Shown here piece after piece: positions 16,501 to 19,500 of a stretch of DNA of 64,000 bases. The position numbers and the translations under genes are program-made. Positions within the stretch are counted from its first letter, which is position 1. Each line of letters starts with the position of its first letter. Origin of the DNA: Acanthopleura granulata (lineage: Eukaryota > Mollusca > Polyplacophora > Chitonida > Chitonidae); NCBI GenBank assembly GCA_016165875.1, contig JABBOT010000002.1:20166120-20230119 (forward strand), given 5' to 3'. Under the pieces are notes generated by a model that was not told the origin of the DNA, made no database searches, and was given only the letters and a program-made list of their open reading frames with translations.

Positions 16501-19500
16501 CTGATTTATGTCACCGAAAAATGACAACTCCATGTCCGTGTGTACTCGGCACTCACAATGTGGCAAGCCAAAGGTTCTAGAGTGGCATACTAATAGCTTA
16601 CCACAACATTGGAGACAGCCAAGTTTAAGGGTTGTGTACAGGTGGAAACAATCTGGTTGAGAAACAAATTTATACCTGTCACATGCACCAGGTACATGAA
16701 AAAAAAAAAATTTGAATTCGCACACCTTTCAAAGGGTTATTAATGGATAAATTTACAAGAAAGAAGCTTTTTCTCAATCTCTTATGAACAACTATGTGAC
16801 TTTCTTGTGTATTTTGAAGCCCATGAAATTTGTCTTATTTCAGGCCTTGCTACCTGCGGCGTTTGGGTGGTATTTTCATAATCAAAACGTGGGCCAGAGC
16901 AGTTATTCTGGGCTGTGCAATTTGTGATTAAAATCTGTGATTAAATGAGAAAGACATTTATGACGTATTAAAATATGTGATCACGAACTTTATGACAGGG
17001 CAGGCATGCTTTCAAGTACTTCACAACCATTTCTGCAGATCTACTGTGGTATGTGGTCCAACAGAACACTCTCTCAGTGTTGGCAAGCTGGTGGCTGGCT
17101 AATGGGTCACACTTTATTAACTATATCAAGCATGATATAGTTGTGTTAACTTTGTGAAAACGACAACTGAGCTGATAGCTAGATCAAACACTTCTTGTCT
17201 TCCGGGAAAACCTACACGTATTAGAAATTATGCCACATCAGAAAAAATCCTCTGCTTTTGATCGGACAGTAATGGTCACGTGACAGATGCTATATGCATC
17301 TGGTGACTTTGACAAGAGTAGGGTGAATACCATGACGTAACAGTTACAATGTGATGCAACAATGACACCAACAACACATCACAGGGGTATGCTGACACAA
17401 AATTGTCAATAACTTTATGATGTCATAATTCCCAAATCACCTCTTGGTAATTCAAAGCTTCTTGATACGAGATAAAATTACTGTTGAAGTTTCTTTTGTT
17501 TTCCAAGAAACAAATTTCAGTGTAGTTTTTAGGCTCTCCTGTTGGATAAATTCGTCACATGGTTACTGAGTGAAAGGATACGAAAGTATATCAGGTATCA
17601 TATTGGGCTAGGCGTGAGCACAAATGAACTTCTTAATTATCCCACCATTTACATGTTATTGTGTTCTGATACACTTTGTATTGTAATTGCCAACTGAAGA
17701 CCTTCAACAAATCTGCACAGATCTATCTAAGTCACAGTTAAGCATTCAAATTAGTGAAAATCAACTTGTGCTGTTATGAATATGAGTTAAATTTGCAATA
17801 ATAAGGGTTAAATTAAGGCTAATAAATTTCAGGATAATTCAGCTGTGCAGCTTGTGAGCAACAATGCATTTGATCCTAGCACTATTCATGTGCATCACAA
17901 GTCTCTAAGCACTGGACACGTCATTTATTTATTTGAATGATATCAGAATTGATCACCATATTCTCACAAAACAGTCACCTCCTGCATGACACAGGCAACC
18001 CAGCGAGAGGTAGATTCAGGCCTGTGTCATCACTGGTCAGGGGATCAATGGCAGTCACTAAAACATTGCTGTGACAGGACGCGATAGGAGTCAGGCCTGC
18101 ATAAAGCCTTCATCTGACTGGTATAATAAGAGAAGAATGAGGAAGATGATGATGATGATGAGGAGGGGAGGATAATGAGGAAGGTGATGAGGGTGAGGAG
18201 GAGGGAGGATAATGAGGAAGGTGACGAGGGTGAGGAGGAGGGAGGATAATGAGGAAGGTGATGAGGGTGAGGAGGAGGGGGAGTATAATGAGGAAGGTGA
18301 TGAGGGTGAGGAGGAGTGGGAGATAATGAGGAAGGTGATGAGGGTGAGGGGGGAGGATAATGAGGAAGGTGATGAGGGTGAGGAGGGATGGGAGGATAAT
18401 GAGGAAGGTGATGAGGGTGAGGAGGGATGGGAGGATAATGAGGAAGGTGACGAGGGTGAGGAGGAGGGGGAGGATAATGAGGAAGGTGATGAGGGTGAGG
18501 AGGAAACGAAAAATATGTCAATGAGGATGATGAGAATGAGGAAGATGATGCTGGAGGACGATGATGATAAGGAGGAACATGACGAGGATGAGGATGTACC
18601 TGCAATGAACGACAATCGGCCCGTCCTCAAACTGCATCATGGTGTCTCTGATTGTCTCCCTGTACTCCAGTAATCCTTCAGGATCCTCGGGGTTCTGCTT
18701 GTCAGGCCAGCGCAGGTACTGGAAGTGGTACACAATGCGCGCGTCTACACCCTGAAAACATACACACAGGCTAACTGTCAGGCCAGCGCAGGTACTGGAA
18801 GTGGTACACAATGCGCGCGTCTACACCCTGAAAACACACACACAGGCTAACTGTCAGGCCAGCGCAGGTACTGGAAGTGGTACACAATGCGCGCGTCTAC
18901 ACCCTGAAAACACACACACAGGCTAACTGTCAGGCCAGCGCAGGTACTGGAAGTGGTACACAATGCGCGCGTCTACACCCTGAAAACACACACACAGGCT
19001 AACTGTCAGGCCAGCGCAGGTACTGGAAGTGGTACACAATGCGCGCGTCTACACCCTAAAAACACACACACAGGCTAACTGTCAGGCCAGCGCAGGTACT
19101 GGAAGTGGTACACAATGCGCGCGTCTACAGGCTGAAAACACAAACACAGGCTAACTGTCAGGCCAGCGCAGGTACTAGAAGTGGTACACAATGCGCGCGT
19201 CTACACCCTGAAAACACACACACAGGCTAACTGTCAGGCCAGCGCAGGTACTGAAAGTGGTACACAATAGGCGTGTCTACACCCTGAAAACACACACACA
19301 TGCTGATTGTCAGGCCAGCGCAGGTACTGAAAAGTGGTACACAATACGCATCTCTACACCCTACAAACAGTGAAAACAAACTGAAAACAATGAAACTGTC
19401 GGAAATTTTATCACAGCAACTTTCAGACAACTTTTCAGACATCAAGAACTCACATTTCGGACATCCAGTTTGCGTATCTTGAAGTTATCCCTGCAGTGCT

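Follow-up and report, generated by a model that had tools for sequence, protein, structure and literature searches.

The window analysed here (the whole stretch of DNA, 64 kb) contains a minus-strand gene that is a receptor-type tyrosine phosphatase, within which lies a 76-bp tandem array. The gene encodes a Y_phosphatase domain with WPD and HCSAGVGRSG motifs, the second of which, in the exon at 16334..16474, we take to be the catalytic motif. The WPD exon alone matches Pfam PF00102 (Y_phosphatase) with an E value of 2.6e-09, and over this exon it is 90% identical to the closest protein found, P0001 of Liolophura sinensis, another chiton of the Chitonidae. The transmembrane part is visible just as a hydrophobic frame at 26636-26803. 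Thr/Ser-rich open stretches at 28212-28563 and 60827-62404 (-) are perhaps mucin-like ectodomains of two phosphatase genes, and a recurring LFIYLFDWCFTPYSRIFHLYDGGQHYGGRKPGRARGKPTTI-like frame at 3805-4392 (+), 21820-21957 and 23033-23182 (+) is probably an interspersed repeat. The features needed to follow the analysis are listed below, with the eight intronic copies of the array numbered D1 to D8 from the outermost inward.

19454..19585, minus strand: preceding exon, EKCYQYWPDKDC...RKLDVRN, with its donor GT at 19453
18700..19369, minus strand: 76-bp tandem array (a mirage, see below) of nine units, eight of them intronic decoys, identified by TRF, unit listing and whole-genome search
19284..19360, minus strand: decoy D1, the outermost and most diverged, 77 nt, reading GVEMR, with a frameshift
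19208..19283, minus strand: decoy D2, reading GVDTP, with a TAG at codon 19
18752..19207, minus strand: decoys D3-D8, 76 nt each, of which D5-D8 equal the exon over a 51-nt core
18600..18751, minus strand: true WPD exon, 152 nt, GVDARIVYHFQYLRWPDKQ...IVVHC, with its donor GT at 18599 and its first 52 nt forming the last unit of the array
16334..16474, minus strand: following exon, carrying the P-loop, (C)SAGVGRSGTYIAVDTLLQ, HCSAGVGRSG
14432..14521, minus strand: later exon of the array-bearing gene, GQYMFVHQCLLLAMDNKKKQ
51510..54176, minus strand: paralogous phosphatase domain in tandem (gene B, the gene spanning 50410-54176), with WPDRK and SAGVGRTG motifs

TRF, run on the 64-kb window, places a tandem array at 18700-19369, with a unit of 76 bp, 8.8 copies, 95% matches and a score of 1191. 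On the minus strand each of the nine units comprises 24 nt of intron end, with its 3' splice site, and 52 nt from the start of the WPD exon (GGT...GACA), and only the copy at 18751 runs on into that exon. The first exonic bases of the nine acceptors lie at 19360, 19283, 19207, 19131, 19055, 18979, 18903, 18827 and 18751 (true). The acceptor of D1 sits in unique intron sequence (TTTGTTTTCACTGTTTGTAG), and the intron before D1 contains CCGACAGTTTCATTGTTTTCAG, which resembles a unit junction. A whole-genome search with one unit returned nine matches, all inside this array. The tandem duplication of a splice acceptor and exon start described in an earlier note on this DNA is thus real by TRF, unit listing and genome search, with some amendment of detail: the duplicated exon start measures 52 rather than 53 nt, the 76-bp acceptor spacing described as exact is 77 at the first interval, and the near-identity ascribed to all eight copies applies to the inner ones, since differences from the exon over the core run 6, 4, 1, 2, 0, 0, 0 and 0 from D1 to D8 (the six in D1 including a 1-nt insertion). 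Chance could hardly produce such a repeat, because the exact 51-nt core is present five times in it and just 24 of the 63332 distinct 51-mers in the window occur at least five times. That an array should cover some exon boundary somewhere in the window is unsurprising: when 16 arrays of the window were shifted circularly against 26 boundaries, such an overlap arose in 15164 of 20000 shifts. Two further arrays lie in the same gene: one of 39 bp (9.7 copies, 18136-18504, minus strand), CU-rich on the transcript strand, starts ~95 nt and ends ~463 nt downstream of the WPD exon donor, so that this exon has arrays on both sides, and one of 35 bp (20 copies, 96% matches, 15048-15746) occupies the intron after the P-loop exon.

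Hybrid assemblies of short and long reads can misstate the number of copies in a repeat. The present assembly combines Illumina and Nanopore reads and was made with MaSuRCA (PMC7850002), and the assembler might have inflated the copy number or created the array. We regard such an error as very unlikely, given that the outer units differ from the inner ones and from each other, that the flanks are unique and that similar arrays occur in other genes (see below). An array of 670 bp is also short relative to Nanopore reads.

Minisatellites that span intron-exon boundaries have been described in amphioxus as mirages, with examples in Adh3, TnC and the globins BflGb6 and BflGb9 (PMC3087553) and imperfect ones in PGBD5 (PMC3902484). 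In the accounts given there, many copies keep their splice signals and the units at the boundary escape homogenization (PMC3087553, PMC3902484). The array at 18700-19369 has the same anatomy: its copies hold the intron end and the exon start, its unit is of minisatellite size and repeated head-to-tail, and its inner units are homogenized while the edge unit is diverged. Like the minisatellite-like tandem duplications of amphioxus, it is therefore a mirage, a known kind of array, in a phylum for which we found no earlier report in the literature searched. This absence of a mollusc mirage is weak evidence, since most subscription papers fall outside the coverage of that literature. The systems differ in that the amphioxus host is a cephalochordate and ours a mollusc, in unit size, which is reported as 150-160 bp in BflGb6 and 10-72 bp in Adh3 against 76 bp here (PMC3087553), and in copy number, with BflGb6 haplotypes of six and three repeat units against eight decoys in a single chiton assembly (PMC3087553).

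From the reading frame and homology we infer that the last acceptor, at 18751, is the one used in the mRNA, and the residues at this junction are matched by the ortholog P0001. Local strength cannot pick it out, because the decoys score like real acceptors: in a position-weight model they fall at the 69th-93rd percentile, and the true site at the 84th, of 107 acceptors from phosphatase exons of the same genome, percentiles that are relative because the model was trained on boundaries chosen by a crude pyrimidine score. The true acceptor is not stronger than the decoys in this array, and is slightly stronger in two others. In D2-D8 and at the true site, the Pro-Asp codons (CCT-GAC) of the WPD motif form a CTGAC that begins 30 nt before the acceptor, and a GT/T-rich tract and then the AG follow it. 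CTGAC matches the branch-site consensus. Two AGs (one before D2) are only a few bases away from its A and, by the usual rule, too close for use. CTRAC occurs at -50..-15 in just 3 of the 107 real acceptors (YTRAY in 46), so acceptors here do not in general need a strong match to the branch site. The AG is intact in all eight decoys, which could reflect selection, or just youth. RNA structure that would loop the decoys out was considered and rejected, in that the 861-nt stretch folds less stably than its shuffles (z +2.06; 19 of 20 shuffles at least as stable).

Splicing to a decoy would extend the WPD exon at its 5' end to 228-684 nt for D2-D8 or 761 nt for D1, against 152 nt for the true exon. 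Every decoy product is predicted to end early, in agreement with the premature stop foreseen in the earlier note, but the in-frame TAG at codon 19 that it assigned to any decoy holds for six of the eight: the frame stops after 18 residues in D2 and D4-D8, after 10 in D3 (at a TAG of its own) and, following the frameshift, after 16 in D1. Donor-like sites in D2-D8 score at most 3.2, whereas 111 real donors have a median of 8.45 and a 5th percentile of 3.59, so these copies are very unlikely to serve as separate exons and would just lengthen the existing one. This argument leaves D1 uncovered, since D1 holds the only donor-like site of fair score in the array (CATGTGTGT, 61 nt in), which at 5.69 scores at least as well as the donor of the preceding exon (5.44). 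Splicing of D1 as a separate exon of 61 nt is conceivable, and such an exon would be out of frame and contain a stop. In addition, the intron to the D1 acceptor is the shortest of the nine (93 nt), and the first-AG rule would favor D1, the decoy met first, over the last acceptor.

The fair donor-like site in D1 bears on whether the array represents intron gain in progress, in which decoys could become a new small exon or intron. Tandem duplication of sequence with splice signals is an accepted route of intron gain (PMC3443670), mirages have been proposed as a source of new introns (PMC3087553), and internal tandem repeats in human segmental duplications are described as minisatellites that alter gene structure at exon-intron boundaries and may form novel introns (PMC2812944). 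The chiton gene differs from these cases in that no new intron is apparent: the end of an old intron has been copied, and the copies appear to stay intronic. The intron occupies a phase-0 position shared with gene B, in which the homologous intron (~53185..52575) has ends read by eye, and it is therefore not in a new place; D2-D8 have no fair donor, and the 61-nt D1 exon would break the frame and contain a stop. We consider intron gain highly improbable. Recursive (ratchet) splicing through the units draws its appeal from the GGTGTAG at the exon start, which places a GT one base inside the acceptor junction, but every such step would retain one additional G and put the message out of frame, on which ground we reject the idea, its chance being close to nil.

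The sequence of the copies carries some record of how the array arose. Liolophura P0001 reads GVETRIVYHF at the exon start, where the true exon, D3 and D5-D8 read GVDAR, D4 PVDAR, D2 GVDTP and D1 GVEMR; the E of Liolophura thus survives in D1 only and its T in D2 only, and each of these decoys also differs from Liolophura (by M in D1, and by D and P in D2). Two of nine single-base changes to GAC produce an E codon and one of nine to GCG a T codon. On the simplest reading, which is based on one outgroup protein and not its DNA, the outer copies predate the exon sequence seen today, and the inner copies and the exon would have changed together. The divergence of the outer copies fits the suggestion, already made in the earlier note, that the array grew by slippage and was homogenized. 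It is possible, though we rather doubt it, that mirages recur in this mollusc genome and that intronic copies swap sequence with the coding exon, so that the outer copies would be fossils of an older exon (E in D1 and T in D2, beside the WPD loop) and duplication or conversion would have fixed the new D and A.

Other boundary-spanning duplications were found in the same genome, all in phosphatase genes, the only loci in our censuses (contigs are given as C numbers and census loci as L numbers).

14522..14850, minus strand: second, older and degenerate acceptor mirage in the same gene, before the exon starting at 14521 (TRF at 14504-14615)
C2:15.25M (L025 1102-1517): acceptor mirage of 6.1 copies of 67 bp before a P-loop exon
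C2:16.73M (L015): donor mirage; six more donor-like copies lie downstream and diverge progressively, and the final one has no GT
C13:0.85-1.95M: cluster of ten places with closely related phosphatase P-loop exons, with a donor duplication flagged in five genes
C4:1.44M: donor copy ~480 bp away
C2:15.38M and C2:15.48M: marginal donor duplications in two paralogs, with ~6 exonic bases in the repeat

In the second mirage of the array-bearing gene the exon-start copies have their first exonic base near 14571, 14664, 14750 (AG lost) and 14843. The array at C2:15.25M likewise has homogenized inner units and a diverged edge unit, its outermost copy having a different acceptor tract and one decoy lacking the AG. 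Because the C13 donor duplication was flagged in five genes of the cluster, it is probably older than the cluster. A candidate at C4:7.89M (L055) was dropped because the repeat begins inside the intron, and L019, flagged in one census round, was absent from the later strict and sensitive flags. With these examples and those of amphioxus, the earlier note's description of such an array as unusual is wrong as regards its kind.

The strict census covered 131 acceptors and 135 donors, from which four acceptor and five donor flags were removed as the decoys of the 18700-19369 array itself. Local repeats were present at 2 of ~127 acceptors and 3 of ~130 donors (5 of ~257 boundaries), compared with 1502 of 21745 non-coding positions (6.9%), and a 50-locus run gave the same five boundaries and 1058 of 17654 non-coding positions. 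The sensitive census found a boundary-spanning local copy at 12 of 237 boundaries (~7 independent events); among the controls, such a copy was present at 8 of 286 intronic probes and at none of 1185 shuffled flanks. The excess over intronic probes is not significant (Fisher p 0.25, or 1.0 when paralogs are collapsed to seven events). Duplication aimed at splice sites is accordingly unsupported by either census, and, with the boundary rate no different from that of intronic probes, nothing points to splicing-directed duplication.

These data also bear on a regulatory role, in which the decoys would direct a fixed fraction of transcripts to early stops and copy number would tune the phosphatase level. 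Decoy scores like that of the true site and an early stop in every decoy product are what such a role would predict, and there is a human parallel in the ABCA7 intron-18 VNTR, which contains the exon 18 donor and whose length is reported to correlate with skipping of exon 19 and to be inversely related to expression (PMC5954066). In both genes the authentic splice site lies inside the array and is repeated, and decoy use causes a frameshift in ABCA7 (PMC5954066). The ABCA7 array differs in involving a donor rather than an acceptor, with a 25-bp unit that begins with the donor GT, in flanking the exon rather than copying it, and in having measured splicing effects (PMC5954066). Given this precedent, absence of function cannot be assumed for the chiton array. 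However, retention of one unit in ABCA7 is reported in just 2 +/- 1% of transcripts and is independent of length (PMC5954066), and amphioxus mirages are described as not interfering with regular splicing (PMC3087553, PMC3902484), a view suggested by Adh3 data and globin RT-PCR (PMC3087553). In the chiton, repeats across boundaries show no significant excess over intronic ones, the array RNA is no more structured than its shuffles, and TRF reports no array in the homologous intron of gene B. The proposal that the array may tune the output of active phosphatase is thus unsupported, and we judge a regulatory role unlikely.

We consider it likely instead that this mirage is a minisatellite derived from tandem duplication of an intron-exon boundary, and that the gene tolerates it as a by-product, exon definition selecting the last acceptor. 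The boundary of a receptor tyrosine phosphatase exon would have been duplicated in tandem, giving a whole 3' splice module in each unit (D2-D8 and the true site). Lacking a donor, D2-D8 would be usable only as 5' extensions of the same exon, and exon definition across the shortest exon would favor the last acceptor. Leaked products, with early stops and further exons downstream, would presumably decay by NMD. The array may have grown and been homogenized on the exon side, so that recent changes are common to the inner copies and the true exon and older codons persist in the outer copies. Such an array would need no dedicated function and would be a by-product of a genome with frequent local tandem duplication.

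Recurrence of mirages in chitons, as in lancelets, would make the duplication of splice sites by minisatellites a wider process and not a peculiarity of cephalochordates. Species rich in mirages would then be natural tests of how the spliceosome chooses among near-identical acceptors; here the eight decoys score around the true site, and the choice should therefore come from position. The outer copies may offer a within-gene record of older exon states and, if intronic copies do swap sequence with the coding exon, non-coding decoys would act as donors of coding change.
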